Shown here piece by piece: positions 762-16,083 of a stretch of 17,944 nucleotides of DNA. Each line of letters opens with the position of its first letter. Positions within the stretch are counted from its first letter, which is position 1. A program made the position numbers and the translations under genes. The stretch is taken from positions 1 through 17,944 of the forward strand of contig JALOPD010000109.1 of assembly GCA_025454075.1 (NCBI GenBank), in the 5' to 3' direction. The notes beneath the pieces are model-generated. The model saw only the letters and a program-made list of their open reading frames with translations. It was not told the origin of the DNA and made no database searches. This stretch comes from Desulfobacterales bacterium. Its GTDB lineage: Bacteria > Desulfobacterota > Desulfobacteria > Desulfobacterales > UBA2174_A.

Positions 762-1411
762 CAGACCCGCCTCTTCAACGTGATGATGTTCACCCGTTTG
801 GAGACCCGGTCGGCCTGGTCCGAGATCTCCCCCAGCGCGATGACCACCTCCTTCAGCTGCAGCTGGTCGACCTTGTCCAGGTCGGAGTCGAACACCTTGA
901 TCATCAGGCTGCGCTCGATGTGGTCGCAGTGGCTCTCGTTGCGGTCGATCGTCGCCATCAGCGCCCGGATGCCCTGGCGGTTCTTCATCATCAGGTCGAT
1001 CTGCTTGATCATCAGCTCGCAGCTCTCCACCGAGATGCGGATCAGGTCCTTCACGTCCAGCTTGATGAACTCGGGCAGCGTGATCTTCTGCGCGCGGATC
1101 AGGTGCAGGACCAGCTCGAAGATCCGGGGGATGATCTCCACCTGCTCGATGAGGTTCATGATGTCCTCGCGGGACTCGGGGATCAGCGCCCGGCTGTACA
1201 TGAGCAGATTGATCTCGTCGCGGATCTCGTCGGCCTTGGACTCGAATTTGTGGGTCTGCTCGATCAGAAACCCGAACTCCCCGCACAGGCCCTCGTCCAG
1301 GCAGGTGTCCATCGCCTTGACGAAATGCTCCTGGGTCCGGGTCAGGTTCTCCAGGTATTGGTCGACGAGCGCTTCGAGCTGCCGCTCTTTTTTGAAAAGG
1401 AAGTCGAACAT
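761..1411 (-). CDS. DUF47 / PhoU-like PiT accessory protein
   Basis: A 216-residue soluble, all-helical, charged protein of the DUF47 (TIGR00153-like) family, distantly related to PhoU. Family members are thought to modulate the neighbouring PiT phosphate permease; the mechanism is not visible here. The N-terminus MFDFLFKKERQLEAL and the helix-rich body with many Glu, Asp and Arg residues are typical, and the length matches the family. No membrane segment or signal peptide is seen. A GGAG Shine-Dalgarno sequence lies about 8 nt before the ATG. The stop overlaps the permease start by one base. The gene lies 52 bp downstream of the transketolase stop with no terminator between, so it may be read from the upstream operon as well. 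Confidence 0.92.
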   Translation of the reverse strand: MFDFLFKKERQLEALVDQYLENLTRTQEHFVKAMDTCLDEGLCGEFGFLIEQTHKFESKADEIRDEINLLMYSRALIPESREDIMNLIEQVEIIPRIFELVLHLIRAQKITLPEFIKLDVKDLIRISVESCELMIKQIDLMMKNRQGIRALMATIDRNESHCDHIERSLMIKVFDSDLDKVDQLQLKEVVIALGEISDQADRVSKRVNIITLKRRV

Positions 1412-1463: not shown

Positions 1464-3479
1464 TCAATCGGGCCGCCGGCCCAGGACCCTCAACGCGGCC
1501 TCCACCACGCGCTCGGCGGTGAACCCGAACTTCTCCATGACGGTCCCGCCGGGGGCCGAGGCGCCGAAGCCCGTCATGCCGACCACCGTGCCCGAATCGC
1601 CGACATACCGCTCCCAGCCCATGGCGATCCCGGCTTCCACCGCGACCCGCGCCGCGACCGCGGGCGGCAGCACGGCGTCCCGGTAGTCGCGGGGCATCTC
1701 CTCGAAGAGCTCCCAGCTCGGCATGCTCACCACGCGCACGGCCACCCCTCTTTCGGACAGCACTTCCTGAGCCTTCAGCGCCAGCTGGACCTCCGAGCCG
1801 GTCGCGATCAGGAGGACCTGCGGATCAACGGCGTCCGAGAGCACGTAGGCCCCCTTGGCGAGGCTGTCGGCCGGGGGCAGCTTCCGCCGGTCGAGCACCG
1901 GCAGGTTCTGGCGGCTCAGGATCAGCGCGACCGGGCCATCTCCGCTCTGCAGCGCCGTGCGCCAGGCCGCCGCGGTCTCGGTGGCGTCCGCCGGCCGGAT
2001 GACGGTCAGGCCCGGGATCGCCCGCAGGGCGGCCAAGTGCTCCACCGGTTGGTGGGTCGGGCCGTCCTCGCCCACGGCGATGCTGTCGTGGGTGAAGATG
2101 TAGATGACCGGGAGCTTCATCAGCGCCGCCAGCCGGATCGAAGGGCGCATGTAGTCGGCAAACACCAGAAAGGTCCCGCCGTAGGGACGCACGCCCCCGT
2201 GCAGGGCCAGGCCCGAGAGGATCGCTCCCATGGCGTGCTCCCGCACCCCGAAGCGCAGGTAGCGCCCGTCCCAGGCCCCTTTTTGGAAATCGTGCGCGCC
2301 CTGGATGGCCGTATTGTTGGAGGGGGTGAGGTCCGCCGAGCCGCCCACCAACGTCGGCAGCCGGGGGGCCACCGCGTTCAGCGACCGGCCGAAGGCCGCC
2401 CGGGTGGCGATGGGCTTGCCGTCGGCGAAGCCCGGCAGGTCCGCGTCCCAGCCCGACGGCAGGCTGCGGTCCATGGCCCGGCGCCACTCCTCCGCCCGCT
2501 CGGGGGATTCTTGGGCCCACGCGGCGAATGTCTTCCGCCAGGCGGCCTCGGCCTTCGCGCCCCGCTCGACGCAGCGGCGGAAACGCCGCAGCGCCTCCTC
2601 GGGGATGAAAAACGACGCCTCCGGCGAAAACCCCAGCCGCGCCTTGGTCAGGCGGGCCTCGTCCGCGCCCAGCGGCGCGCCGTGGGCCTCGTGGGAATCC
2701 TGCTTGTTAGGGCTGCCGTAGCCGATGTGGGTGCGGCAGACGATCAGCGAGGGCTTGGCGGTCTCCGCCCGGGCGTCCACGAATGCCTGCCGGATGGCCT
2801 CTATGTCGTTTCCGTCCTTGACCCGCAACACCTGCCAGCCGTAGGCCTTGAACCGCTGGGGCACATTTTCCGTGAACGACAGCTCGGTGCCGCCGTCGAT
2901 GGTCACGTGGTTGTCGTCGTAGAGGCCGATCAGCCGCCCCAGGCCGAGATGCCCGGCGAGCGAAGCCGCCTCCGAGGAGACGCCTTCCATGAGGTCGCCG
3001 TCGCCGCAGAAGACGTAGGTGAAATGGTCGACGATCTTCCGGCGGCCGCGGTTGAAGCGCGCCGCCAGGTGCCGCTCGGCGATCGCCATGCCGACGGCGT
3101 TGCCGATGCCCTGGCCGAGGGGGCCGGTCGTGGTCTCCACCCCGGCGGTGTGCCGGTATTCGGGGTGCCCGGGGGTTTGGCTGCCCCACTGCCGGAAGCG
3201 CTTGATCTCATCCAGGGCAAGGTCGTAGCCGCACAGGTGCAGCAGGCTGTAGAGCAGGGCGGAGGCATGGCCGCCCGACAGCACGAAGCGGTCCCGGTTC
3301 GGCCAGCCCGGGTTTTGCGGGTGGTGCTTGAGCACGCGGGTAAACAGCACGTAGGCGGCGGGCGCCAGCCCCATGGGGGCCCCGGGGTGGCCGGATTTCG
3401 CCGCTTCGACGGCGTCCACGGCCAGGGTGCGGATCGTGTTGATGCACAGCTCATCGATCGACGGCTGGGTCTTGGCCAT
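1464..3479 (-). CDS. tkt: Transketolase
   Basis: Thiamine-diphosphate enzyme of the non-oxidative pentose phosphate pathway that moves two-carbon ketol units between sugar phosphates (EC 2.2.1.1), in the cytoplasm. It is 671 residues long, the normal full length. Visible landmarks are [12 protein letters not shown] (residues 29-40), the ThDP/metal motif GDGDLMEG (159-166), the metal ligand region [10 protein letters not shown] (187-196), the pyrimidine-domain segment [10 protein letters not shown] containing the catalytic Glu, and [13 protein letters not shown]. The C-terminal domain is present. Start ATG 3479 is preceded by AAAGGAG at good spacing. It lies downstream of alanine dehydrogenase on the same strand, separated by about 134 bp holding an inverted repeat. 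No missing catalytic residue was noticed. In an anaerobe lacking a complete oxidative branch it would mainly supply pentoses and erythrose 4-phosphate (inference). Confidence 0.97.
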
Positions 3480-3526
3480 TCGGGAAGTCTCCTTTCGGCA
3501 GAAAAGAAGTGATACCGAAAACCGCG

Positions 3527-3566
3527 AAACCGAAAACAGGACCTAACGTTTTTCTGTTTCCGGTTT
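3527..3566 (-). promoter_or_regulatory. Inverted repeat / hairpin between ald and tkt
   Basis: Arms at 3527-3539 (AAACCGAAAACAG) and 3554-3566 (CTGTTTCCGGTTT) with a 14-nt loop. In RNA made from the minus strand, the direction of the flanking genes, all 13 positions pair, one as G-U. There is no run of U after the stem, so it is not a standard intrinsic terminator. An attenuator, RNA-stability element or small repeat is possible. A direct repeat of TTTTCTGTTT lies at 3550-3559 and 3572-3581. Confidence 0.5.
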
Positions 3567-3613
3567 GACGGTTTTCTGTTTAACCGGCTGCTGTTGCGCG
3601 AGCCGTTGGCCCA

Positions 3614-4744
3614 TCACTTGCGCCGCTTCGCCCCCAGCACCTTTTCGATCGGCGTGTATTTCAGGCCGAAGGCCTCGGCGACCCCGGCGAAGGTCACTTT
3701 GCCGTCGATGACGTTGATGCCCTGGGCGATCTCCGGGTTGTCGAGGGCCGCGCGGCGGACGCCCTTTTCGGCGATCTCGATCGCGTAGGGCAGGGTCGCG
3801 TTGGTCAGCGCGATGGTGGAGGTCATCGACACCGCGCCGGGCATGTTGGCGACGCAGTAGTGGATGATCCCGTCCACCTCGTAGATCGGGTCGTCGTGGG
3901 TGGTGGGCCGGGCCGTCTCGATGCAGCCGCCCTGGTCGATGGCCACGTCCACGATCACGGTGCCCTTCTTCATGAGCTTGAGCATGTCGCGGGTCACCAG
4001 CCGGGGCGCCGTGGCGCCGGGGATCAGCACCGCCCCCACCACCAGGTCCGCCTCCTGGAGGTAGCGCCGGATGTTGGCCGGGCTGGATGCGATCGGAAAG
4101 CAGTTCGGCGGCATCACGTCGCTGAGATATCGCAGCCGCTCCAGGTTGGTGTCGAGCAGGTACACCTTGGCGCCCAAGCCGCAGGCGATCTTGGCGGCGT
4201 TCACCCCGACCACCCCGCCGCCGAGGATCAGCACCGTGCCGGAATCCACCCCCGGCACCCCGCCCAGCAGCTTGCCTTTGCCGCCGAAGGTCTTCTCGAG
4301 GTATTTGGCGCCCTCGTGCACGGCCATCTTGCCGGCGACCTCGCTCATCGGGGTCAGCAGCGGCAGCGACCCGTTGGCCTTCTTGACGGTCTCGTAGGCG
4401 ACGGCGGTGCAGCCGGATCGGATGATGGCCCGCGTCAGTTCCTTGGAGGCCGCGAAGTGGAAATAGGTGAACACCACCTGCCCCTTGCGGATCAGCGGGT
4501 ATTCCTTCGCCAGCGGCTCCTTGACCTTCATGACCATGGCGCACCCGGCGTAGATTGCCTTCGGGGAGGCCAGGATCTTCGCCCCGGCCTTCTCGTACTG
4601 TGGATCGGCGAAACCGGAACCCTCGCCGGCGCGGGTCTCCACGCACACCGTGTGGCCCCGCCCCACCAGCTGCTCCACCCCGGCCGGCGTCATGGCGACC
4701 CGGCTTTCCTTGGTCTTGATCTCCTTCAGTATCCCGATGATCAT
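3614..4744 (-). CDS. ald: Alanine dehydrogenase
   Basis: NAD-dependent L-alanine dehydrogenase (EC 1.4.1.1), interconverting alanine and pyruvate plus ammonia. The chosen start is ATG 4744 ([20 protein letters not shown]): it sits directly behind AAGGAGGAG and matches the family N-terminus; an upstream in-frame ATG at 4768 would add eight residues and cover that Shine-Dalgarno sequence. This gives 376 residues, close to the usual length. Catalytic and substrate residues expected in the family are present: Arg15, Lys75 in MKVKEP, His96 in YFHFA and Asp270 in DVAIDQGG. The NAD-binding Rossmann motif GGGVVG is at about 175-180. The conserved block [16 protein letters not shown] (295-310) is intact. 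It lies downstream of citrate synthase and upstream of transketolase on the same strand. Confidence 0.97.
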
Positions 4745-4777
4745 GATCTCCTCCTTCCTTAGAGGCAACCGTCAGGA

Positions 4778-4801
4778 CTGAGCCGCCGTCGGGCGGCTCA
4801 G
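4778..4801 (-). terminator. Perfect 10-bp hairpin at the end of gltA (no U-tract)
   Basis: CTGAGCCGCC (4778-4787), a four-base loop, and GGCGGCTCAG (4792-4801) pair perfectly. The citrate synthase stop codon (4798-4800) lies inside the stem. No U-run follows in the minus direction, so efficient intrinsic termination is doubtful. A partial terminator or a 3'-end stabiliser between gltA and ald is more likely. Confidence 0.55.
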
Positions 4802-6075
4802 CGTTCCTCGATGGGCACGTAGGGCCGCTCCGCAGGCCCGGTGTACAGCTGCCGCGGCCGGCAGAGCTTCCAGTCCGGGTCGTCCATGCCCTCCTTCCAC
4901 TGGGCGATCCAGCCCGGCAGCCGCCCGATGGCGAACAGCACCGTGAACATGTTGGTGGGGATGCCGATCGCCCGCAAGGCGATGCCGCTGTAAAAATCGA
5001 CGTTCGGGTACAGGTGGTGCTCGATGAAATAGTCGTCCTTCAAGGCGATTTCCTCGAGCTCCAGGGCCAGCTCCAGCAGCGGGTCGGACAGACGAAGCTT
5101 CTCGAGCAGGAGGTGGACCATGCGCTTCATGATCCTGGCCCGCGGGTCGTAGGTCTTGTAGACCCGGTGCCCGAACCCCATCAGCCGGTAGGGGTCCTTC
5201 CGGTCCTTGGCCCGGGCGACCGCCCGGCCGAGGTTCTTCTTCGCCGCGATGTCCTGCAGCATTTCGATCACGGCCTGGTTGGCCCCGCCGTGCAGCGGCC
5301 CCCACAGCGCCGCGATGCCGGCGGAGATCGCCGCGTACAGGTTCACCCGGGCGCTGCCCACCACGCGCACGGCGGCGGTCGAACAGTTCTGCTCGTGGTC
5401 GGCGTGCAGGATCAAAAACACGTTCAGGGCCTTGACCACGTCGGGGTCCAGTTCGTAGGGTTTCACCGGCGAGTCGAACATCATGTTGAGAAAATTGGCG
5501 CAGTAGGTCAGGTCCGGCCGGGGGTAGACCACCGTGTGCCCCCGCGAGATCTTGTAGGACATGGCCGCCATGGTGCGCACCTTGGAGAGCAGGCGCGTGA
5601 CCGTGATGTTGATCTCCTCCTCCAGGTTCTGGAGTTCGGGGTAGAAGCTGCGCAGGGCGTTCACCATCGCCGAGAGAATGCCCATGGGGTGGGAGGACCG
5701 GGGGAAGTTCTGGTAGAAGATCTTCATGTCCTCGTGGACGAGGGAGTTGTCGTTCAGCAGGACCGAAAACCGCGTCTGCTCCTTCTGGGTGGGGAGCACG
5801 CCGTTGATGAGCAGGTAGGCGGTCTCCTTGAAGGTGGAGCGCTCGGCCAGCTGCTCCACCGGGATGCCGCGGTAGCGCAGGATGCCGCGCTCGCCGTCCA
5901 CGAACGTGATGGCGCTGCGGCAGCTGCCGGTGTTGGCAAAGCCCGGGTCCAGGGTGATGAGCCCGGTGTCCTGCCGCAGCCGGGAGACATCGATGGCCTT
6001 CTCCCCCTGCGACCCCTCGACCAGCGGCAGCTGGAACTCCTTGCCCGCGTAAAGAAGCGTTGCGTATTCGGCCAT
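4798..6075 (-). CDS. gltA: Citrate synthase (hexameric, type I-like)
   Basis: Condenses acetyl-CoA and oxaloacetate to citrate (Si-citrate synthase fold), the entry step of the TCA cycle. It is 425 residues long, like gamma/deltaproteobacterial GltA proteins. The catalytic triad is visible and spaced as in the E. coli enzyme: His262 in LHGGANQAV, His303 in [14 protein letters not shown] and Asp360 in NVDFYSG. The N-terminal beta-rich segment typical of the larger bacterial form is present (residues 1-60). The ATG at 6075 has only a weak Shine-Dalgarno sequence (AGAGG). A sigma-70-like promoter is found 45-75 bp upstream. It is the first gene of the leftward group gltA-ald-tkt. A methylcitrate synthase activity cannot be excluded from sequence alone, but no propionate-pathway gene is adjacent. 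Confidence 0.95.
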
Positions 6076-6119: not shown

Positions 6120-6149
6120 CCTATACACCAACCTTCAGGCGCCGGTCAA
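6120..6149 (-). promoter_or_regulatory. Sigma-70-like promoter for gltA
   Basis: On the minus strand TTGACC (6144-6149, 5 of 6 to consensus) is followed after 18 bp by TATAGG (6120-6125, 4 of 6). The predicted RNA start near 6113 is about 38 nt before the gltA ATG. It lies in the 146-bp divergent gap between gltA and the next plus-strand gene. Matched by eye only. Confidence 0.45.
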
Positions 6150-6221
6150 TTTACTTGCGCAGGCGGTTGTGTTAGACAGAAACGCGATCGGACACCCCCC
6201 CAAACCGAGAGGAGGCCGGCG

Positions 6222-7019
6222 ATGGCGTTCAAGGAGAACCTGCTGCAAAAAATCCGCGTCGACCAGCTGGCCGCCCAGGTCCTCGCCAGCATCGGGGCCG
6301 AGGGCACCGAGGCCAGGCTCGACAAAAATGCCATGCGCCAGCTCCTGGCGCTGAGCCCCTATGTCCACCGCCGGGAACGGGACCTCGACCTCTATGTCGA
6401 GGAGGCCGACGCCCCCGCGAAGAAAATCCTCGTCCTCGACGGTGAGCTGCCCCTCTACCGGACGACCGTTGCGGATGTCGTCCTGCGCAAGAGCCCCGAG
6501 GTCGGCGAGATGGTCAACCTCCGCAACATCGTCAAGATCCTCAGGGACTCCGACGTCAAGATCAGCCGCAAGGCGGAATCGCTGAAAGCCGTCCAGGCCG
6601 AGTGCATCGCCCAACTCGACCTGTCCTTCAGCGCCGAGGACATCAACGACATCCGCCGGGACGGCATCGCCTCGCTGGAAAGCAGCTATGCGGACGGGGT
6701 GAACGAGGCCCTGCTGCTGTTCGCCGAGCTGCTGGGCTATCGCCCGGTCCCCAAACCGTTCAGCGTGCCCCACTGCACGATTTACGCCGCCGTCTACCGC
6801 AAGGACAGCGGCGAGACCGTCGTGGGGCCGGCGGTCCTGTTCAATCTCATGCGCAACGATCTGAAGCTGGCCGAGGAGACGTTCGGGGCCTTCGAGAAGG
6901 AAAAGGTCGAGCGCTTCCACGCCATCGCCGCCGGCAAGGAGAAGACCGCCGTTCAAGGGGCCGCCGTGTTCGAGCACCTCCAGAAAGCCGTCCTGAGCTC
7001 GCGCACGAAGGGCAATTGA
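6222..7019 (+). CDS. Conserved uncharacterised protein (265 aa)
   Basis: I do not recognise a function. The product begins MAFKENLLQKIRVDQLA and is soluble, with no signal peptide and no membrane segment. It is rich in charged helical stretches and has only two cysteines (in AECIAQLD and PHCTIYA). The region around residues 55-85 (RERDLDLYVEEAD, KKILVLDGELPLY) looks like alternating beta strands; the C-terminal half contains a likely helical block (DGVNEALLLFAELLGY). The start at 6222 is well supported by GAGAGGAGG about 7 nt upstream. I recall similar hypothetical proteins in sulfate-reducing bacteria, without assigned role. It is transcribed away from gltA and ends 109 bp before the histidine kinase, so it may be the first gene of that group or stand alone. 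Confidence 0.85.
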   Translation: MAFKENLLQKIRVDQLAAQVLASIGAEGTEARLDKNAMRQLLALSPYVHRRERDLDLYVEEADAPAKKILVLDGELPLYRTTVADVVLRKSPEVGEMVNLRNIVKILRDSDVKISRKAESLKAVQAECIAQLDLSFSAEDINDIRRDGIASLESSYADGVNEALLLFAELLGYRPVPKPFSVPHCTIYAAVYRKDSGETVVGPAVLFNLMRNDLKLAEETFGAFEKEKVERFHAIAAGKEKTAVQGAAVFEHLQKAVLSSRTKGN

Positions 7020-7068
7020 ATATGCCCGTTTCGAGGGGGAGGCGTTCCGCAAATCAAATAGGCCGAAT

Positions 7069-7102
7069 AGCACATCACGCAGAGGCGGAGCGGGGTGCCC
7101 GC
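7069..7102 (+). repeat. Dispersed 33-nt element, copy 1
   Basis: Positions 7069-7101 match 12423-12455 at 30 of 33 bases; weaker similarity extends about 20 bases upstream of both. Inside is a short hairpin, GCGG (7090-7093) with CCGC (7099-7102) around GGTGC. The other copy has TCGG/CCGA around AGTGC, a compensatory G-C to T-A change at the base pair. The copy lies 27 bp before the start codon of the histidine kinase gene. Confidence 0.6.
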
Positions 7103-7128
7103 CGCGGCGAGCCGCAACCAATTTCCCA

Positions 7129-8616
7129 ATGATCCGACTCAGCCTCAGAAACCGTGTCCTGCTGATCCTGGCCGGGTTCGTTCTGACCACCCTGTTCCTG
7201 GGACTGGTCCTGGTGTGGTACACCTTCCGCATGGAAGGGCTGCTGGCGTCCATCACCGAAAAACACCTCTTTGCCTCCCGCAACGCCGAGGCCCTGGAGG
7301 CCGCTCTCATGCAGCAGAAGGGGCTGGTGGCCTATCACCTTCTCGACGGCGACCCGGACTGGCTGCGCCGGCAGCAGGCCCTGGAGGGGGATTTCCTGGA
7401 CCGACTGGCCCGGGCCCGGGAGGCATCCGAGGATGCGGACCCGTTGCAGGCCCTGGAGCAGATCCGCGCCGATTTCGAGCAGTACGCCGCCAAGAAAGGG
7501 CGGGTGGTCGAACTCTACCGCAGCGGCGACACGGCGGCCGGCGCGGTCCTGCACCGCGAGGTGCACCGGCACTTCGACTCGCTGATCGAGCGCAGCGCGC
7601 GGTTCAAGCAGTTCCACACGGACCGGATCCTCGCCGCCGAGGCCTACAGCCACGAGCAGGCCCAGCGGCTGCGGCTCATCTCGTTGGCCGCCATTTTCAG
7701 CTCGGCGGGCCTGACCCTGCTGCTGGCCTTCGTCTTTGTCTACCAGATCCTGGAGCCGCTGCGCCGCCTGACGCTGGAGGCCTACCGCGCCGGGGTCCCG
7801 GCCCGGTCCGAAAACGAAGTCAAAGCGCTCAGCCGCGGGGTCCGTGTGCTCCTGCACAACGTCGACCACACCCAATCCGAGCTGGTCCGCAGCCGGGAGT
7901 CCCTGCTGCAGGCCGAAAAAATGGCCCTCGTCGGGAAGCTCGCCGCGGGCATGGCCCACAGCATCCGCAACCCTTTCACCTCGGTCAAGATGCGGATGTT
8001 CTCACTGGGGCGATCCCTCGACCTGGACGCCGCCCAGAAGGATGATTTCGACGTGATCGCGGCCGAAATCCGGCACATCGACACCATCGTCCAGAACTTC
8101 CTCGAGTTCTCGCGGCCGCCGAAGCTCCGGATGCTGCCCGTCGACCCGTCCGGCGTGGTGGATTCCGCCCTGCGGCTGCTGGAGCACCGGCTGAAGGCCT
8201 ACGGCGTGACCGTCGCGGTGGATCGCCCCGCGCCCCTGCCGCCGGTGGCCGCCGATGCCGAACAGCTCAAAGAGGTGCTGGTCAACCTCGTGGTGAACGC
8301 CTGCGAGGCCATGGCGCACGGGGGGACGATCACCATCGAGGAGCGGTCGGTCCCCTTCGGCACCCACGGCCGGGCCGCCCTCATACGGGTGCGCGACGAC
8401 GGCCCCGGCATCCCGCCCCATCTCGTCGAGAAGGTGTTCCAGCCGTTCTTCTCCACCAAGGAGCAGGGCACGGGGCTTGGCCTCAGCATCGCTCAGCGGA
8501 TCATCGGCGAGCACCACGGAAGCCTGGAGGTCGAGTCGATCGACGGGCAGGGGGCCGTTTTCACCATCACGCTTCCGGCCAAGGAGCCAGTCCATGAGCA
8601 CGATCCTGATCGTTGA
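7129..8616 (+). CDS. Membrane sensor histidine kinase (NtrB/ZraS-like)
   Basis: A 495-residue two-TM sensor kinase. TM1 lies at about 8-31, a periplasmic helical sensor of about 150 residues follows, TM2 lies at about 183-208, then a HAMP-like linker (EPLRRLTLEAYRAG). The dimerisation/H-box is GKLAAGMAHSIRNPFTSVKM with phospho-His277. The ATP domain shows an N-box (NLVVNACEAM), G1 (DDGPGIP), F-box (VFQPFFSTK) and G2 (GTGLGLSIA). The residue after His277 is Ser rather than the usual acidic residue. The ATG at 7129 lacks a clear Shine-Dalgarno sequence, but no other in-frame start lies close upstream and TM1 begins directly after it. The 3' end overlaps the response regulator gene by 23 bp, making that regulator its evident partner. 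The signal sensed cannot be told from sequence. Confidence 0.93.
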   Translation: MIRLSLRNRVLLILAGFVLTTLFLGLVLVWYTFRMEGLLASITEKHLFASRNAEALEAALMQQKGLVAYHLLDGDPDWLRRQQALEGDFLDRLARAREASEDADPLQALEQIRADFEQYAAKKGRVVELYRSGDTAAGAVLHREVHRHFDSLIERSARFKQFHTDRILAAEAYSHEQAQRLRLISLAAIFSSAGLTLLLAFVFVYQILEPLRRLTLEAYRAGVPARSENEVKALSRGVRVLLHNVDHTQSELVRSRESLLQAEKMALVGKLAAGMAHSIRNPFTSVKMRMFSLGRSLDLDAAQKDDFDVIAAEIRHIDTIVQNFLEFSRPPKLRMLPVDPSGVVDSALRLLEHRLKAYGVTVAVDRPAPLPPVAADAEQLKEVLVNLVVNACEAMAHGGTITIEERSVPFGTHGRAALIRVRDDGPGIPPHLVEKVFQPFFSTKEQGTGLGLSIAQRIIGEHHGSLEVESIDGQGAVFTITLPAKEPVHEHDPDR

Positions 8617-10066
8617 CGACGACGACCAATTGCGCAAGAGCTTTCACAAGCTGCTGGTCGAGGAGGGCTACACGGTGGCGAGCGCGGCGTCGGGCGAGGA
8701 CGGCCTCCGGAACATCCAGAAAAGCATGCCGGACCTCGTCGTCCTGGACATGCGCCTGCCGGGCATGAACGGGCTGGAGACCTTTCGGGCCATCCACCGG
8801 CTGGAGCCCAAGCTGCCGGTCATCATCATGACGGCGTTCGGCACCACCGAGCACGCCATCGAGGCCACCAAGCTCGGGGCGTTCGACTACGTGTTGAAGC
8901 CCTTTGACATCCCCGGCATGCTCGGTATCATCCGGCAGGCCTTGGAGGCCGGGCGGTTCATGCGCTCGCCGGTGGACATGGACGGCTCGCCGGGCAAGAC
9001 CAGCCGCGAGGCCATTGTCGGCCGCAGCCGGTCGATGCAGGATGTCTACAAGGCCATCGGCCGGGTCTCCTCCACCGAGGCCACCGTGCTCATCCGCGGC
9101 GAATCCGGCACGGGCAAGGAGCTGGTGGCCCGCGCGGTCTATTCCCACAGCCTGCGGGCCGGCAAGCCCTTCCAGGTCATCAACTGCGTCGCGATCCCGG
9201 AAAACCTGCTGGAAAGCGAGCTCTTCGGCTACGAGAAAGGCGCCTTCACGGGGGCCGCCCACCGCCGCGTGGGCAAGATCGAACAGGCCAACGGCGGCAC
9301 CGTTTTCCTGGACGAAATCGGCGACATGCCCTTCGGCATCCAATCCAAGATCCTGCGTCTGTTGCAGGAAAAGAGCATTGAACGTCTCGGCGGCCGGGAG
9401 ACCATCCCGGTGGACGTGCGCATCATCGCCGCCACCAACCGCGACCTCGAGACCGCACTGCAGCAGGGCCGCTTCCGCGAAGACCTCTACTACCGGCTGA
9501 AGGTGGTTACGATCGCCCTGCCCCCGCTGCGCGACCGGCCGGACGACATCCCGCTGCTCGCCGAGTACTTCATCGCGCGGTATGCGGCCGAATTGGACAT
9601 GGACAACCCGGGCATCACCCCGGAGGCCGTCGCGGTGCTCGCGGGCCACGGGTGGCCGGGAAATGTCCGCGAGCTGGCCAACGCCCTCCAGAAAGCCCTG
9701 ATTTTCAACCGCGGCGCCCCGATCCAGCCGGCGGAGATGACCCAGGCCGTGGGGGGCGGCGGCGACCGCCGGCTCTCCTCCATACGGGAGACCGACCAGG
9801 TCCTGCGCCAGTGGGCGCGGGAGGCCATCGCCGCGAGCGCGGACGGCGGCAAGTTCGACTCCCTCATGGACCACTTCGCCGCCATCCTGGTCGGCGAAGC
9901 GCTGACCATGACCCGCGGCAACCGCTCCCAAGCCGCACGGCTCCTCGGCCTCTCGCGGCCCACCCTGCACTCCAAGATTGAAAAATACCGGCTGCGGCTG
10001 ATGACGTCCGTCGCGGGCGCGCCGCCGGATCCCGGCAGCGTGCAAAAGGCGAAAGACCTCCCGTGA
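8594..10066 (+). CDS. Sigma-54-dependent response regulator (AtoC/ZraR type)
   Basis: A 490-residue enhancer-binding protein. The receiver domain has DDDD at 8-11, phospho-acceptor Asp52 (VVLDMRLPG), Thr80 and Lys102 (LKPFD). The central AAA+ domain has Walker A GESGTGKE (169-176), the sigma-54 contact loop GAFTGA (216-221), Walker B GGTVFLDEIGD and the arginine-finger region FREDLYYRL. The C-terminus carries a Fis-type helix-turn-helix (about 442-468, GNRSQAARLLGLSRPTLHSK). Start ATG 8594 has AAGGAG seven bases upstream and matches the family N-terminus MSTILIVDDDD. A longer in-frame extension from 8477 is rejected because it lies inside the kinase gene. Two sigma-54 promoters downstream, each with the same upstream palindrome, are its likely targets (inference). 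Confidence 0.96.
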   Translation: MSTILIVDDDDQLRKSFHKLLVEEGYTVASAASGEDGLRNIQKSMPDLVVLDMRLPGMNGLETFRAIHRLEPKLPVIIMTAFGTTEHAIEATKLGAFDYVLKPFDIPGMLGIIRQALEAGRFMRSPVDMDGSPGKTSREAIVGRSRSMQDVYKAIGRVSSTEATVLIRGESGTGKELVARAVYSHSLRAGKPFQVINCVAIPENLLESELFGYEKGAFTGAAHRRVGKIEQANGGTVFLDEIGDMPFGIQSKILRLLQEKSIERLGGRETIPVDVRIIAATNRDLETALQQGRFREDLYYRLKVVTIALPPLRDRPDDIPLLAEYFIARYAAELDMDNPGITPEAVAVLAGHGWPGNVRELANALQKALIFNRGAPIQPAEMTQAVGGGGDRRLSSIRETDQVLRQWAREAIAASADGGKFDSLMDHFAAILVGEALTMTRGNRSQAARLLGLSRPTLHSKIEKYRLRLMTSVAGAPPDPGSVQKAKDLP

Positions 10067-10095
10067 CCGGACCGCCCCCGGCCGGGACCTTCCCG

Positions 10096-10122
10096 TTTAC
10101 ATTTTGTAAAAAGTCCGGACAG
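10096..10122 (+). promoter_or_regulatory. Candidate enhancer (UAS) for the sigma-54 regulator, site 1
   Basis: The palindrome TTTACA-TTT-TGTAAA (10096-10110) is followed by A, six further bases and GACAG (10118-10122). The same arrangement recurs at 11589-11615. Its centre is about 107 bp upstream of the -24 GG of a sigma-54 promoter, a normal enhancer distance. The adjacent bases 10113-10120 are the palindrome GTCCGGAC. Binding by the neighbouring regulator is inferred. Confidence 0.6.
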
Positions 10123-10208
10123 GCGGCCCCCATGCACACGCCGGCCGCCGCAGCCGGATATGCATGCGCTATCGAGCAGTTAGCTTGATCGGCCCCGGGC
10201 CCGCGGGG

Positions 10209-10224
10209 TGGCACATGCTTTGCT
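10209..10224 (+). promoter_or_regulatory. Sigma-54 promoter upstream of the first universal stress gene
   Basis: TGGCAC-ATGCT-TTGC-T matches the sigma-54 consensus TGGCAC-N5-TTGCW at every conserved position, with GG at 10210-10211 and GC at 10222-10223 spaced correctly. The predicted start near 10235 gives a leader of about 115 nt before the ATG at 10351. It lies in the 284-bp gap after the sigma-54 regulator gene. Confidence 0.8.
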
Positions 10225-10350
10225 TTTATTTTAAAGCGGAACGCCGGGCTCACCCGCCTGTGCGCCCGCCCTCGGTTCAACCAGCCGGTCGGGCGCTCAG
10301 GTCGGGTTTTCGAGGGCCCGAATCCCTTGTACCGAAAAGAGGAGCCGCCC

Positions 10351-10833
10351 ATGCAGGAGGTCAAGACCATCCTGGCCGCCGTCGACTTTTCGCTGTATTC
10401 CCCCCAAGTGCTCCGGTCGGCCGCAACCCTCGCACGGGCGCTCCGGGCGCAGCTCGTCGTCGTCAATGTCCTCAATCGCAGGGATGTCGACGCCATGGAA
10501 ATGGTTCAGCGAAGCTTTCCCGGGCTGTCGATGCCGCAGTTCATTCAGAACACGACGGCGGAGCGCCGGCGCCTGCTCGAGAAGCTGCTGATGGAGGAGG
10601 GCGCCGAGTCGCTCTCGGTGAAAACGCGGGTCGACGTGGGGGTGCCTTTCAAGGAGATCCTCAAGGCTGTCGACGCGGAGAAGGCCGACCTGCTGGTCAT
10701 GGGGACCAAGGGCCGCGGCAACCTCGCGGATGCCCTCTTCGGCTCCACCGCCGAAAAAGTGTTCCGGCGCTGCCCCGTTCCCCTGCTGAGCGTGCGCCCG
10801 GAGCGGCATATCCCCGAGGCGGCCGCCGGATGA
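10351..10833 (+). CDS. Universal stress protein (UspA family, ATP-binding type)
   Basis: A 160-residue single Usp domain. It begins MQEVKTILAAVDFSLYSPQ, with the first beta strand and conserved Asp, and ends with the nucleotide-binding motif G-x2-G-x9-G-S (GTKGRGNLADALFGS) and the final strand CPVPLLSVRP. The intact motif predicts an ATP-binding rather than UspA-like non-binding member. ATG 10351 is chosen over a TTG eight codons upstream because AGAGGAG lies at correct spacing before it. It has a sigma-54 promoter and a candidate enhancer in front. It lies 112 bp before the CBS-ACT gene with a small hairpin but no terminator between, so the two are probably one transcript. Usp proteins help survival under starvation and stress; a specific role is not visible. 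Confidence 0.93.
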   Translation: MQEVKTILAAVDFSLYSPQVLRSAATLARALRAQLVVVNVLNRRDVDAMEMVQRSFPGLSMPQFIQNTTAERRRLLEKLLMEEGAESLSVKTRVDVGVPFKEILKAVDAEKADLLVMGTKGRGNLADALFGSTAEKVFRRCPVPLLSVRPERHIPEAAAG

Positions 10834-10875
10834 GTTGGGGCCCGAACCGGTCGTCGGTTTATTGGGCCATCGAGG

Positions 10876-10894
10876 CCGGGCGGCCATCGCCCGG
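10876..10894 (+). other. Intercistronic hairpin between usp and CBS-ACT genes
   Basis: CCGGGCG (10876-10882) and CGCCCGG (10888-10894) pair perfectly around a five-base loop. No U-run follows, so it is unlikely to terminate transcription. It may adjust mRNA stability between the two genes. Confidence 0.4.
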
Positions 10895-10945
10895 TGCGTA
10901 AGCGAAATCGGATCCCGCAACCCTTGACCCGACGGAGGTGATGGA

Positions 10946-11554
10946 ATGCTGGTAAAAAATTGGATGAGCAAAAACGTGGTCACCATCAACGAGGACGACT
11001 CCATGCAGGATGCCATGAAGTTGATGAAGCAGCACAGCATCCGCATGCTGGACGCCACCACCCTGGACGTCCATGAACTGCTCTACTTGATCTCGAAAAT
11101 CAAGGTCAAGAACATCATGTCCAAGAGCCCGGTCGCCGTGTCCCCGGACCTCACGGTGGAGGAAACCGCCGAAATCCTGCTCAACAACAAAATATCGGGC
11201 GTGCCGGTGGTCGACGAAAAGGGGAAGGTGGTCGGGACCATCACCCAGACCGACCTGTTCCGCGTGCTGATCGCCTTGACCGGTGTCGGCAAACGGGGCA
11301 TCCAGTTGGCCTTTCAGGTTGCAGACCGGCCCGGGTCCATCAAGGACCTGGCGGACCCCATCCGCAAACACGGCGGCCGCATGGTGAGCATCCTGACCTC
11401 CTACGACAACGTGCCCGACGGCTTCCGCAAGGTTTACATCCGCATGTACGGCCTGGACCGCGCCAAGCTGCCTGCCCTCAAGGAAGAGCTGGCCAAGGCG
11501 GCCAAGCTCCTCTACCTTGTGGACCACCGCGAAAACCGGCGGGAGATCTACTGA
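10946..11554 (+). CDS. CBS-ACT domain protein with a shortened first CBS motif
   Basis: A 202-residue cytoplasmic protein. It has a CBS half-motif (VKNWMSKNVVTINEDDSMQD, residues 3-22, to Leu35), a complete second CBS motif (about 53-110, ending GTITQTDLFRVLIAL) and a C-terminal ACT-like domain (about 117-190, FQVADRPGSIKDLAD). CBS pairs bind adenine nucleotides; ACT domains bind amino acids or similar ligands. In relatives I recall, the first CBS contains a strand pair and a GIVTDRDL-like end after IRML. Here IRML joins directly to DATTLDVHELL, so about 25 residues appear lost in frame at about 11050. GGAGG lies seven bases before the ATG. A strong terminator follows directly. The gene sits between two stress-protein genes, probably co-transcribed with the first. 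Confidence 0.88.
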   Translation: MLVKNWMSKNVVTINEDDSMQDAMKLMKQHSIRMLDATTLDVHELLYLISKIKVKNIMSKSPVAVSPDLTVEETAEILLNNKISGVPVVDEKGKVVGTITQTDLFRVLIALTGVGKRGIQLAFQVADRPGSIKDLADPIRKHGGRMVSILTSYDNVPDGFRKVYIRMYGLDRAKLPALKEELAKAAKLLYLVDHRENRREIY

Positions 11555-11556
11555 AG

Positions 11557-11591
11557 AAACCTCCGGGAGCGGACGCACCCGGAGGTTTTTT
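11557..11591 (+). terminator. Intrinsic terminator after the CBS-ACT gene
   Basis: The stem CCTCCGGG (11560-11567) with CCCGGAGG (11578-11585), extended by AAA/TTT at the base, is followed by six T (11586-11591). This is a textbook rho-independent terminator three bases after the stop codon. Confidence 0.9.
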
Positions 11592-11615
11592 ACACCCTGT
11601 AAAATTCTTCGACAG
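11588..11615 (+). promoter_or_regulatory. Candidate enhancer (UAS) for the sigma-54 regulator, site 2
   Basis: TTTTACA-CCC-TGTAAAA (11588-11604) is a perfect 7+7 palindrome, followed after six bases by GACAG (11611-11615), exactly as at site 1. Its centre lies about 115 bp upstream of the -24 GG of the second sigma-54 promoter. Its left arm overlaps the T-run of the preceding terminator. Confidence 0.6.
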
Positions 11616-11709
11616 CGGCGGCAGCGGCCTTCTTTTGCCCGTCTCTCCAACAGGCCGATATTCAATATTATTTCAGTTCATTGGCTTGAGCCCTGCCGCC
11701 CCAGAGGGA

Positions 11710-11725
11710 TGGCATGTCTGTTGCT
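11710..11725 (+). promoter_or_regulatory. Sigma-54 promoter upstream of the second universal stress gene
   Basis: TGGCAT-GTCTG-TTGC-T matches TGGCAY-N5-TTGCW with correct GG (11711-11712) to GC (11723-11724) spacing. The predicted start near 11735 gives a leader of about 65 nt. An AT-rich palindrome ATATT-C-AATAT (11658-11668) lies between enhancer and promoter, where a bending protein such as IHF often binds; it does not match the IHF consensus well. Confidence 0.72.
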
Positions 11726-11800
11726 GTTATGATGGCGAATCCCGCCTCCAACCGATAGATCTCTATTCCGAACCATAGGGGAACGAAAAGGAGATCGCCC

Positions 11801-12256
11801 ATGAAGGAGTTCAAGAAAATCCTCTTCCCGGTGGACCTTTCCCAGTCTTCGGCCAAAATCGTGCCGTTCCTGCAGAGCCTGGCCGGCCGCTACGGGGCCC
11901 GCATCCACCTGCTGTTCGTGGCCCGGGTGTTCGACTACTTCACGAGCATGTACGTCCCGCACCCCTCGGTCAGCCAGTTCGAAAAGGAGGTGATCGAAGG
12001 GGCCGAAAAACGGCTGTATGAATTCGCGGACGAAAGCTTCAAGGACTTCCCGGGGACGAAAACCAAGGTGGTCGCCGGAGACCCGTCCGATGAAATCCTG
12101 AGTTACATCGAGGAGCACGGCATCGACCTGGTGGTCATGGGGACGCACGGCCGCAAGGGCCTCGACAAAGTCATCTTCGGCTCGGTGGCCGAGCGGGTGG
12201 TCAAGGCCTCGCCGGTCCCGGTGCTGGTGGTGAACCCCTTCAAGGTCAGCGACTGA
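11801..12256 (+). CDS. Universal stress protein (UspA family, ATP-binding type)
   Basis: A 151-residue single Usp domain. It starts MKEFKKILFPVDLSQSS, with the usual strand-1 Asp, and carries the nucleotide motif G-x2-G-x9-G-S (GTHGRKGLDKVIFGS) near residues 115-130, followed by SPVPVLVVNP. It is only moderately similar to the other Usp in this window, so the pair is not a recent tandem duplication. AAAAGGAG lies about eight bases before ATG 11801. It has its own sigma-54 promoter and enhancer-like palindrome. Function beyond a nucleotide-binding stress role cannot be read from the sequence. Confidence 0.94.
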   Translation: MKEFKKILFPVDLSQSSAKIVPFLQSLAGRYGARIHLLFVARVFDYFTSMYVPHPSVSQFEKEVIEGAEKRLYEFADESFKDFPGTKTKVVAGDPSDEILSYIEEHGIDLVVMGTHGRKGLDKVIFGSVAERVVKASPVPVLVVNPFKVSD

Positions 12257-12363
12257 GGCCCCGGACGAAAGGCGAGAGCGAGCTGCGCGTCCGGGTGGCA
12301 ACACGAGCATCAAGGCGGCTCACCCGGGAGCGAACTTCTTGCAGCGCGAACGGTGAAGAGGCC

Positions 12364-12394
12364 GGGCGTCACCCGAAGCGATGACGCTTTTATT
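12364..12394 (+). terminator. Probable intrinsic terminator after the second usp gene
   Basis: GCGTCA (12366-12371) pairs with TGACGC (12382-12387), extendable by two G-U pairs, followed by TTTTATT. The stem is short and it lies about 110 bp after the stop codon. Confidence 0.5.
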
Positions 12395-12422
12395 GCTCCG
12401 GCAAGTAAATATGTCGAACTTC

Positions 12423-12456
12423 AGCATATCACGCAGAGGCGGATCGGAGTGCCCGA
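12423..12456 (+). repeat. Dispersed 33-nt element, copy 2
   Basis: Matches 7069-7101 at 30 of 33 positions. The internal stem is TCGG (12444-12447) with CCGA (12453-12456), a compensatory change relative to the GCGG/CCGC of copy 1. It lies about 120 bp before a response regulator gene; copy 1 also precedes a two-component gene. Confidence 0.6.
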
Positions 12457-12575
12457 CCCAAGGCGCCGGGGCCATGGAAGCGCGAAGGTGCAACTCGTTA
12501 GACGGTTTTCTAATACCTCATCCAATTCGGGCGGTGCCACCCGGCATGTTCGCCCGGCCGTGGAGGCGGTGAGCG

Positions 12576-12998
12576 ATGGAGAGCAAGGGGCTGATCCTGG
12601 TGGTCGACGATGATCCGGACATCGTGGCGACGTCGCGGATCATTCTGGAAGGCAACGGTTACGAGGTGCACACGGCTTCCAACGGGAAAGAAGCCCTCGC
12701 TCTCCTGTCCCGGGTCAAGCCGGACCTCATGCTGCTGGACGTGATGATGGCCTCGGACACGGAGGGCTTCGACCTGGCCTTCAAATTGAAGGAAGACCCC
12801 GAGTTCAAGGACCTTCCGATCATCATGCTGACGGCCTTCCTGGACAAGGTGCGGACGGAGGGTGCGGGGCCCTTCGAGTTCATTCTGGGAGAGCAGTGGC
12901 CGGTGGAGTGGCTCTTCGAAAAACCGTTGGACACCAAAAAACTGCTGGCCAAAATCGAAGCCATTTTCAAGGCCAGGAAGATCGTCCCCAGCGGCTGA
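12576..12998 (+). CDS. Single-domain response regulator (receiver only)
   Basis: A 140-residue CheY-like receiver without an output domain. The acidic pocket is DDD (11-13), phospho-acceptor Asp55 (LMLLDVMM), the switch Thr86 (MLTAF) and Lys116-Pro117 (FEKPLD). The stretch between Thr86 and Lys116 is about eight residues longer than in CheY and includes GEQWPVEW, so the beta4-beta5 region carries an insertion. GGAGG lies about nine bases before ATG 12576. It is followed 71 bp later by a histidine kinase and then by electron-transfer genes; it probably works with that kinase as a phosphoryl shuttle or by protein contact. No DNA-binding domain is present. Confidence 0.92.
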   Translation: MESKGLILVVDDDPDIVATSRIILEGNGYEVHTASNGKEALALLSRVKPDLMLLDVMMASDTEGFDLAFKLKEDPEFKDLPIIMLTAFLDKVRTEGAGPFEFILGEQWPVEWLFEKPLDTKKLLAKIEAIFKARKIVPSG

Positions 12999-13069
12999 GA
13001 GCCGCCCGGGGCTGTCCGTTCCCGGTTCCTTCACGCAGCCCGAACTTCCCCGGCAAAGGAGGGAAGGTG

Positions 13070-14935
<1,866 letters not shown>

Positions 14936-14947
14936 GGAGGCAAGCGC

Positions 14948-15433
14948 ATGACCGCAGCCAAGATCACACCGGAAGCGGCGCCGGATCTCACGCCGCTGGA
15001 CGCCATCCTGAGCGAGCACCGGGGACAGAAGGGGGCCGTGATCCCGGTGCTCCAGAAAGCCCAGAAGATTTACGGCTACCTGCCGCCGCAGGTGCTGCGG
15101 CACATCAGCGCCGGCCTGCGCGAGCCCCTGAGCAGGATTTACGGGGTGGCCACCTTCTACTCGCAGTTTTACCTGACCCGCCGGGGCCGGAACATCGTGC
15201 GCCAGTGCGACGGGACCGCCTGCCACGTACGCGGGGCCGGTAAAATCGTCGAGCGCATGGAGCAGGAACTCGGCATCACGGCCGGCGCGACCACCGCCGA
15301 CTACCGGGTCACCTGCGAGGTGGTGTACTGTCTGGGCTCCTGCGGCCTGGCGCCGGTGGCCGTGGTGAACGAGCAGACCATCGGTAAAATCGCGCCCGAA
15401 AAGATGGTCGCGATTTTAAAAAGTCTGGAATGA
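14948..15433 (+). CDS. NuoE/HndA-type [2Fe-2S] subunit (24-kDa family)
   Basis: A 161-residue thioredoxin-like [2Fe-2S] protein of the complex I 24-kDa family, as found in NADP-reducing hydrogenase (HndA) and NAD-linked formate dehydrogenases. The N-terminal helical part (PVLQKAQKIYGYLPPQVL) and IYGVATFYSQFYL are typical. Ligands are Cys87-x4-Cys92 (CDGTAC) and Cys128-x3-Cys132 (CLGSC); Cys123 is extra. TAAGGAGG before ATG 14948 overlaps the stop codon of the kinase gene. It carries electrons between the flavin subunit and downstream clusters. The HndB- and NuoF-like genes that follow place it in a soluble NAD(P)-linked complex rather than in membrane complex I. Confidence 0.93.
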   Translation: MTAAKITPEAAPDLTPLDAILSEHRGQKGAVIPVLQKAQKIYGYLPPQVLRHISAGLREPLSRIYGVATFYSQFYLTRRGRNIVRQCDGTACHVRGAGKIVERMEQELGITAGATTADYRVTCEVVYCLGSCGLAPVAVVNEQTIGKIAPEKMVAILKSLE

Positions 15434-15448
15434 GATACAGGAAGGAAA

Positions 15449-15468
15449 TGTTCGGGGGAATTCGAACA
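15449..15468 (+). other. Small inverted repeat after the NuoE-like gene
   Basis: TGTTCG (15449-15454) and CGAACA (15463-15468) are perfect complements around eight bases. No U-tract follows. It could be a minor hairpin or an operator. Confidence 0.3.
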
Positions 15469-15494
15469 ATGAGTGATGGCCCTTGATCAGTTCC

Positions 15495-15549
15495 ATGTGG
15501 GAGAGGCTTCCAGCCTCGATGCCTTCGCGGCAAGATGCCGCTCCCACAT
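15495..15549. repeat. REP-like clover-shaped inverted repeat
   Basis: Outer arms ATGTGGGAG (15495-15503) and CTCCCACAT (15541-15549) enclose two further hairpins: AGGCT-TCC-AGCCT (15504-15516) and GCGGC-AAGAT-GCCGC (15527-15541, sharing its last base with the outer stem). The 55-bp unit has the look of the short GTGGGAG-type intergenic palindromes that occur in many copies in some proteobacteria. Only one copy is in this window. It lies between the NuoE-like and HndB-like genes. Confidence 0.6.
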
Positions 15550-15591
15550 TAGTTTCCCTGAACCCTGTAACCTCGATAGAGGGATAGGACC

Positions 15592-15966
15592 ATGCCGAAA
15601 CTCATGAGCATCGAGGATTTCAAAAACCTGCAGGAGGAGTCGCGCCGCAGCATCCGGGTGCGCAACAAGACCGGCACCCGGATCATCGTCGGCATGGGCA
15701 CCTGCGGCATCGCCGCGGGCGCCCGCGAAACGATGCAGGCCGTGCTGGCGGAGCTGAAGAAGCGGGAGATCGACGCCCACGTGACCACGGTGGGATGCAT
15801 CGGCATGTGCGCCTCGGAGCCGCTGGTCGACATCGAGCAGGCGGAGGGGACCCGGATCACCTACGGGCCGGTGAAACCGGACATGATCCCGCGCCTGATC
15901 GAGGAGCACCTGGTCAACGGGCGGGTGGTGCAGGAGTGGGTCGTGGCCCGCATGGCCAAAACATAG
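15592..15966 (+). CDS. HndB-like thioredoxin-fold ferredoxin-like protein
   Basis: A 124-residue protein similar to HndB of NADP-reducing hydrogenases and to the N-terminal thioredoxin-like ferredoxin domain of NuoF/HndC. The motif GTCGIAAGARE (36-46) and the motif GCIGMCASEPLV (68-79) are visible. Only three cysteines are present (38, 69, 73). Alignment by eye with the NuoF-like neighbour, which has four, shows Gly34 where that protein has its first cysteine, so a normal [2Fe-2S] cluster is uncertain. The N-terminal 28 residues are charged and probably helical. It sits between NuoE-like and NuoF-like genes, the classical HndA-HndB-HndC order. The start at 15592 has only a weak Shine-Dalgarno sequence (AGAGGGATAGG). 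Confidence 0.88.
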   Translation: MPKLMSIEDFKNLQEESRRSIRVRNKTGTRIIVGMGTCGIAAGARETMQAVLAELKKREIDAHVTTVGCIGMCASEPLVDIEQAEGTRITYGPVKPDMIPRLIEEHLVNGRVVQEWVVARMAKT

Positions 15967-16083
15967 TCCGGAACCGTTTCGGTTTTCCCTGTCCGGGTTT
16001 CGGGTTTTCAGACAAACGGCTCGAGCGCCCCGAGTGACCGGCGGCGGAAGGCGGGCGTAGCGCCCTGCGAAGGAGGCGGTCTT
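15967..16083 (+). other. 117-bp spacer with GTTTCGG-rich repeats and a small hairpin
   Basis: Two related stretches, GTTTCGGTTTTC and GTTTCGGGTTTTC, follow each other at 15975-16009. They resemble the minus strand of 3511-3539 in the ald-tkt spacer. Nearer the next gene, GGGCG (16053-16057) and CGCCC (16061-16065) can pair just before AAGGAGG. No promoter was recognised. Confidence 0.4.

Follow-up and report, generated by a model that had tools for sequence, protein, structure and literature searches.

The closest described counterpart of the system considered here is NmpR of Myxococcus xanthus (NmpRSTU), an NtrC-like, sigma-54-dependent response regulator that activates genes for CBS-domain and single-domain universal stress proteins (Usp) from promoters with dyad enhancers, and for which an energy-status theme has been proposed (PMC11841059). 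A second precedent is DVU3305 of Desulfovibrio vulgaris, a sigma-54 response regulator with UspA-domain targets and a dicarboxylate-transporter operon (PMC3333781, PMC4641369); more widely, a genomic survey reports that Usp genes with predicted sigma-54 promoters are enriched in Planctomycetia (PMC12316311). Activation of CBS and Usp genes by a sigma-54 response regulator is, through NmpR, already known. Here, we analyse a 17,944-nt stretch of DNA from a Desulfobacterales bacterium (GenBank assembly GCA_025454075.1, contig JALOPD010000109.1; hereafter, the window), in which genes for a sensor kinase, an NtrC-type regulator, a Usp, a CBS protein and a second Usp follow one another on the plus strand; domains were assigned with Pfam. 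An earlier, sequence-only reading of the window knew of no described system with this content, a claim that the two precedents correct. Our principal conclusion is that a 26-bp composite enhancer, present twice in the window, very likely works together with this regulator and sigma-54, as judged from its layout and its distribution across the order. The features concerned are as follows.

7129..8616, plus strand: sensor histidine kinase (HisKA and HATPase_c in Pfam; alignment of 35 sequences)
8594..10066, plus strand: NtrC-type enhancer-binding response regulator (receiver with D52, AAA+ domain with GAFTGA, Fis-type helix-turn-helix (HTH) with the SRPTLHSKIEKY helix)
10096..10121, plus strand: enhancer 1, a TTTACA-N3-TGTAAA palindrome with a promoter-side GACA half-site
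10170..10182, plus strand: IHF-like box 1 (matches the consensus at 8 of 9 positions; centred 33 bp upstream of -24)
10209..10223, plus strand: sigma-54 promoter 1 (-24/-12), TGGCACATGCTTTGC, by pattern match
10351..10833, plus strand: Usp of 160 aa (Pfam PF00582)
10946..11554, plus strand: CBS-ACT (AcuB-like) protein of 202 aa (CBS from Pfam, ACT from PDB matches of a relative)
11554..11591, plus strand: terminator-like hairpin after unit 1 (fold of 11553-11593)
11589..11614, plus strand: enhancer 2, with the identical 26-bp pattern
11671..11683, plus strand: IHF-like box 2 (matches the consensus at 8 of 9 positions; centred 33 bp upstream of -24)
11710..11724, plus strand: sigma-54 promoter 2 (-24/-12), TGGCATGTCTGTTGC, by pattern match
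11801..12256, plus strand: Usp of 151 aa (Pfam PF00582)

The regulator comprises a receiver (PF00072), a sigma-54 AAA+ domain (PF00158) and a Fis-type HTH (PF02954); its translation contains GAFTGA, and the phospho-acceptor aspartate, D52, lies within LVVLDMRLPG. These three domains and two motifs, together with a dyad enhancer some 100 bp before a GG-N10-GC promoter, place it in the NtrC-type class. The likeness to NmpR is one of class, target genes and dyad enhancers; NmpR itself recognizes paired GCGCA-N5-TGCGC sites, answers to an oxygen-sensing phosphorelay and also targets cbb3 oxidase, hemN and pilR genes (PMC11841059). A search of the window for NmpR-type sites gave 23 matches to GCGCA-N5-TGCGC at up to two mismatches, with 27.6 expected and none exact; as there is no excess, these sites were rejected. 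DVU3305 carries GAFSGA and is partnered by a lon-protease receiver, DVU3303, whereas the window regulator carries GAFTGA and no protease domain was found among the window proteins scanned. Among titles and abstract openings, which for two of the searches were those of the best 20 of 237 and of 38 papers, we found no published description of this regulator, its enhancer or its regulon.

The sequence-only reading had described a GAFTGA regulator followed by two near-consensus sigma-54 promoters (at 10209 and 11710), each just before a Usp gene and the first also serving a CBS-ACT gene, and all of this is borne out by the Pfam and pattern matches, the ACT assignment by way of the PDB matches detailed below. 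It had also set an adjacent kinase within 8594..12256; the kinase is real, but it occupies 7129-8616, outside that range, and its gene overlaps the start of the regulator gene on the same strand. The promoter pattern TGGCAY-N5-TTGC matches twice in the window, against 0.04 expected and with two matches in none of 200 shuffles, and a consensus scan of 10030-12600 found no sigma-70 promoters. The enhancers, which are the strongest evidence for the locus, were absent from the earlier account. The palindrome TTTACANNNTGTAAA occurs exactly twice in the window (0.00 expected from shuffles), at 10096 and 11589, respectively 113 and 121 bp before the T of TGGCA, and the full 26-bp form, TTTACA-N3-TGTAAA-N7-GACA, also occurs exactly twice, with none expected. 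Where the earlier account saw one unit, the strong hairpin after the CBS gene (-25.9 kcal/mol, z -7.5) divides the genes into two predicted transcription units; it was revealed by folding and was not listed by the terminator scan, and its T-run extends into the initial TTT of enhancer 2, such that the end of unit 1 and the control site of unit 2 share bases.

The genome collection holds 65 related loci of the regulator. In a neighbourhood scan of the window and 34 loci (35 in all), confined to the strand of the regulator and to 2.5 kb after it, all 21 sigma-54 candidates, which lie in 18 of the 35 loci, are preceded, at a distance of 112-125 bp, by a palindrome (no more than one mismatch). Eight whole genomes of relatives contain 34 exact palindromes, against 6 for the reversed pattern. 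Together with the window and the loci from Desulfobacterota, the eight genomes yield 62 distinct palindromes (at most one mismatch); 47 of these, the discovery sites, have a sigma-54 match (at most three mismatches) at 108-127 bp. A search for the exact pattern in 146 genomes of the order then returned 265 palindromes, and the 67 of these that were among the matches listed and outside G007 formed a validation set. Here, 33 of the 67 have a sigma-54 site (at most two mismatches) at 108-127 bp, where about 0.005 are expected per site. Control palindromes consisted of the pattern read backwards, for which 25 of 34 places were obtained as loci; none of the 25 has a sigma-54 site at that distance. 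Sites from related genomes are not independent, hence no p-value is attached to the validation test. A chance origin of the enhancers is ruled out by the zero expectation in the window and by these negative controls. Of 297 genomes from the whole phylum, 38 contain the 26-bp form; a single match in the control columns was noticed, in G289.

The anatomy of the sites is equally regular. Among the sites with strict promoters, 46 from discovery and 33 from validation, none occurs in both groups. Over the 79 oriented sites, enhancer positions 22-25 on the promoter side read G in 73, A in 76, C in 77 and A in 73; this GACA half-site played no part in finding the sites. Under a slightly wider rule, a promoter-side GACA (at most one mismatch) accompanies 40/40 discovery and 32/34 validation sites, and GACA is present on one side or the other of 20 of the 33 validation palindromes that lack a sigma-54 match, against none of the 25 controls. 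In 64 of the 79 sites, palindrome and promoter are 119-125 bp apart; in 13, the distance is shorter by about one helical turn (110-114 bp). An IHF-like box scoring at least 8/9, with its centre 31-35 bp upstream of -24, is found at 22 of the 46 discovery and 14 of the 33 validation sites, compared with 3 of 197 sigma-54-like matches without a palindrome; the sigma-54 orp promoters of Desulfovibrio are reported to need IHF (PMC3897727).

The enhancer is tied to this particular regulator by its distribution. Defining an orthologue by an E value below 1e-160, or as a contig-end fragment (G026, G064), we find that the 88 of 146 genomes with an orthologue contain 236 palindromes (0.62/Mb; control pattern 33, 0.087/Mb), and the 58 without one contain 29 (0.126/Mb; control pattern 20, 0.087/Mb). 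Palindromes are present in 74 of the 88 orthologue genomes and 18 of the 58 others (Fisher 8e-11, uncorrected for relatedness). The genomes G126 and G089 have 15 and 11 exact palindromes, respectively, against a mean of 2.7 for orthologue genomes, and their regulons are apparently enlarged, to judge from these counts. The HTH helix SRPTLH is near-invariant among the aligned Desulfobacterota orthologues and altered in more distant relatives, mostly Planctomycetes; the 28 loci of the latter contain no palindrome at up to one mismatch and, with their different HTH helix, these relatives are ruled out as regulon members. A link to phages was also rejected, as six peptide patterns found no relative of the regulator in viral contigs. 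The enhancer-sigma-54 layout, together with a palindrome density that tracks the orthologue, makes it very likely that regulator, enhancer and sigma-54 cooperate. The proposal in the sequence-only reading that the regulator drives both promoters is thus upheld, at the level of prediction, by the shared enhancer at near-fixed spacing, its recurrence with orthologues, the phylogenetic profile and the out-of-sample test; likewise, when related genomes are searched for the gene order and promoters, as that reading had advised, the enhancer-promoter layout recurs across Desulfobacterales.

Several observations weigh against this interpretation. After the regulator, 17 of the 35 neighbourhoods have no sigma-54 candidate, some through contig ends; 34 of the 67 validation palindromes have no sigma-54 match by the two-mismatch rule, and 13 of the 33 counted under the wider rule also have no GACA within one mismatch. 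G001, the nearest whole genome, holds two exact palindromes against two reversed controls, with an additional one-mismatch palindrome at position 7483 of locus L001. Fourteen of the 88 orthologue genomes have no exact palindrome and yet retain much the same HTH; among 14 loci from these genomes, only L194 has a palindrome (at most one mismatch) at the right distance, and L192, L193, L196, L197, L198 and L204 have sigma-54-like sites without a palindrome. Conversely, eight genomes with no detected orthologue hold two or three palindromes each; perhaps, palindromes in such genomes stem from incomplete assemblies. Finally, the evidence from the organism itself is confined to the window, and the other regulon members are read from relatives.

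In G069 and G138, where no close orthologue was detected, sigma-54 promoters are correctly placed at 3/3 and 2/3 palindromes, respectively; this could reflect either an incomplete assembly or another regulator of equal specificity.

On balance, we consider it highly probable that the locus encodes an NtrC-type two-component system of Desulfobacterales with enhancers of its own, operating as follows. The kinase would phosphorylate the response regulator, which would bind the 26-bp composite enhancer, as its linkage to the regulator suggests; IHF, from the position of its putative box 33 bp upstream of -24, would bend the intervening DNA; and the AAA+ domain would, through its GAFTGA loop, open the sigma-54 polymerase at TGGCAY-N5-TTGC. 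AAA+ domains with a GAFTGA loop are known, as a family, to open sigma-54 polymerase. In the window, the predicted output is a Usp and the CBS-ACT protein from unit 1 and a Usp from unit 2, to which a receiver and a GAF kinase may also belong. Over the order as a whole, the regulon would be larger: next to the regulator it would include CBS-ACT and Usp genes, whereas its other members would mostly be dCache kinases and receiver-only regulators, joined by a smaller number of DASS and TSUP transporters and acyl-CoA enzymes.

Behind the enhancers of relatives, we find genes for CBS and Usp proteins, dCache kinases, receivers, DASS and TauE/TSUP transporters, PBP-like proteins, CstA, acyl-CoA enzymes and a few others. 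Downstream genes were called by simple open reading frame (ORF) rules, which may miss or misjoin genes, and a selection of the ORFs was compared with Pfam; the receivers scanned, in relatives and in the window, have no output domain in Pfam. With seed proteins of eight families taken from the window and discovery set only, at least one family member lies within 1.5 kb downstream of 25 of the 33 validation sites (dCache kinase 13, receiver 10, CBS 3, TauE 2, Usp 2 and DASS 1). When both directions are read, the same holds for 20 of the 34 palindromes without a sigma-54 match and for none of the 25 controls.

As to the biological role, we tentatively favour, at rather less than even confidence, control of divalent-anion (probably sulfate) uptake combined with energy-status sensing. 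The readings of role share one mechanism, and their likelihoods do not compete with that of the mechanism itself. The energy-status component is favoured because adenine nucleotides are frequent ligands of CBS and Usp proteins, as stated in the NmpR report (PMC11841059). Candidate sulfate transporter families in sulfate reducers include DASS, TSUP (CysZ) and PiT (CysP) (PMC5840216), and a 2025 study proposed a partly speculative model for the control of sulfate uptake in Desulfobacteraceae (PMC11887813). The DASS cluster described there combines DASS, Cache-domain kinases with response regulators and CBS proteins, and the regulator keeps similar company in relatives, a likeness of gene content; the main text of that study describes WalR-type response regulators and has no match for NtrC, AtoC or ZraR. 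In the complete relatives G004, G006 and G123, DASS, dCache-kinase and receiver genes are found no more than tens of kb away from the kinase-regulator pair, and enhancers precede several of those operons; G004 and G006 add CBS, Usp and PBP genes, with DASS, Cache kinase and CBS all within about 45 kb of the regulator, and G006 also has TauE. G123 has a PBP gene and no CBS or Usp match. In Desulfonema magnum (L018), an enhancer is followed, all in one direction, by genes for DASS, a receiver-kinase and a receiver, and finally by the regulator. G005 has a DASS-like gene near the regulator, and the lone palindrome there has no sigma-54 match. Against a role in transport, DASS genes stand behind few enhancers (5 of 47 in the discovery set and 1 of 33 in the validation set), and the window itself shows no DASS gene: neither DASS nor a Cache kinase was found among the window proteins scanned, CBS being present. 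The transport role is, therefore, carried over from relatives. One of the three DASS proteins scanned matches the subfamily model TIGR00785, which does not fix a substrate.

The best-surviving alternative keeps the mechanism and assigns it a compact, local stress regulon, in which Usp and CBS-ACT proteins respond to stress of the envelope or periplasm and the broader set of targets in relatives was acquired later; we regard this as possible but doubtful. A Usp or CBS ORF begins within 1.5 kb of 17 of the 29 sites that have a promoter in the loci retrieved through the regulator, including the nearest, L001, L002, L003 and L006, and the small complement of sites in G001 (two exact, one with a mismatch) is in keeping with a local regulon. 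However, away from the regulator the proportion falls to 3 of the 18 sites in whole genomes and 6 of the 33 in the validation set, and the second exact site in G001 heads a pair of receivers together with a TauE gene, while a dCache kinase lies some kb beyond. The periplasmic loop is no more constant. By eye, the translation of the window kinase shows two membrane segments with this loop between them, weakly similar to CHASE3 (below the Pfam cutoff), and the loop is kept in L002; in an alignment of 35 sequences, most of it is gone, within one open frame, from the kinases of L001, L003, L006 and L008, which are among the nearest relatives, and the sole kinase match in Desulfonema magnum has 29% identity. 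The stress regulon of the sequence-only reading hence suits the genes beside the regulator but does not cover the targets found elsewhere in relatives, and its 'periplasm-sensing' kinase does not hold as a fixed feature. On these counts, Usp and CBS genes are the local core of the predicted regulon and not the whole of it.

Somewhat less probable again is that the same mechanism serves a carboxylate or acetyl-CoA status regulon, geared to organic-acid supply, with anion transport a side branch. Behind enhancers lie genes for acetyl-CoA hydrolase/transferase (L129, L131), AMP-binding synthetases (L019, L145), a CoA-ligase (L105) and CstA (L024), besides the AcuB-like CBS-ACT protein, and a citrate synthase gene stands beside the kinase in the window. 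DASS carriers can, furthermore, also take dicarboxylates. Such genes are, however, outnumbered by the dCache kinases and receivers of the validation set, and the cluster content in relatives resembles the published sulfate-uptake cluster (PMC11887813). That the palindrome instead belongs to another, co-occurring regulator, with the present one acting elsewhere, is improbable: the palindromes in some orthologue-less genomes, their absence from 14 orthologue genomes and the many first-look candidates for this kind of protein in related genomes (248 in G007) would fit it, but in 18 of the 35 loci the regulator gene is immediately followed by such sites, their density tracks the orthologue, and the HTH helix is near-invariant, albeit with orthologues from genomes without exact palindromes included in that comparison.

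Several genes of the window deserve further description. The CBS protein has no Pfam match to ACT; the assignment rests on the intact relative in L003, which matches AcuB and CBS/ACT structures (PDB 5awe, 9s4w, 1vr9) over CBS and part of ACT (E 1.5e-35 to 5awe). The window copy lacks 23 residues present in 8/8 aligned relatives (69 bp, at a gap near 11048, in the core of CBS1), the gap being either a real deletion or an assembly error; it does not, therefore, show the two intact CBS domains plus ACT of AcuB, and no acetoin genes were found among the window proteins scanned. Two further plus-strand genes follow the second Usp:

12576..12998, plus strand: receiver-only response regulator (Pfam)
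12896..14935, plus strand: GAF-type sensor kinase, after the receiver (start as in the ORF listing)

The receiver is possibly the next gene of unit 2, the gap from the Usp being about 320 bp in the window and roughly 90 bp, by alignment ends, in L003; the true start of the GAF kinase probably lies later than 12896. Altogether, 12576-17943 holds the receiver-only regulator, the GAF kinase and HoxE/NuoE-like and NuoF-like genes, all after the second Usp, and the order Usp, receiver, kinase, NuoE-like gene is also kept in L003. On the minus strand, transketolase and citrate synthase genes occupy 1464-6075, and a citrate synthase gene is also found upstream of the kinase in L001, L002, L003, L006 and L008. 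The same five loci contain matches of 48-59% identity to the minus-strand ORF at 6135-7310, which has no Pfam family and is possibly a real gene of unknown family. At the left edge (3-1286, minus strand, cut by the edge), a PiT-family permease resembles the CysP sulfate permease, scoring below the CysP model cutoff; the palindrome scan of the window found none nearby.

Returning to the uptake role that we favour, a broader and more speculative view, to which we lend limited credence, is that the sulfate-uptake signalling network of Desulfobacterales acts on DNA mainly through this regulator, in a part so far unrecognized. Phosphate would pass from many dCache kinases to receiver-only regulators without a DNA-binding domain, and the signal would come together at one sigma-54 activator; through a single composite enhancer, the activator would switch on anion transporters, further sensors and the CBS-ACT and Usp proteins, and the latter, by binding adenylates, may feed back energy status. 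The regulatory code formed by regulator and enhancer is unusually clear and testable. Sulfate reduction begins with the uptake of sulfate, and a searchable 26-bp enhancer with a defined regulator would make the control of this uptake open to experiment; in addition, sigma-54 control of Usp and CBS proteins would gain a further case beside Myxococcus NmpR.

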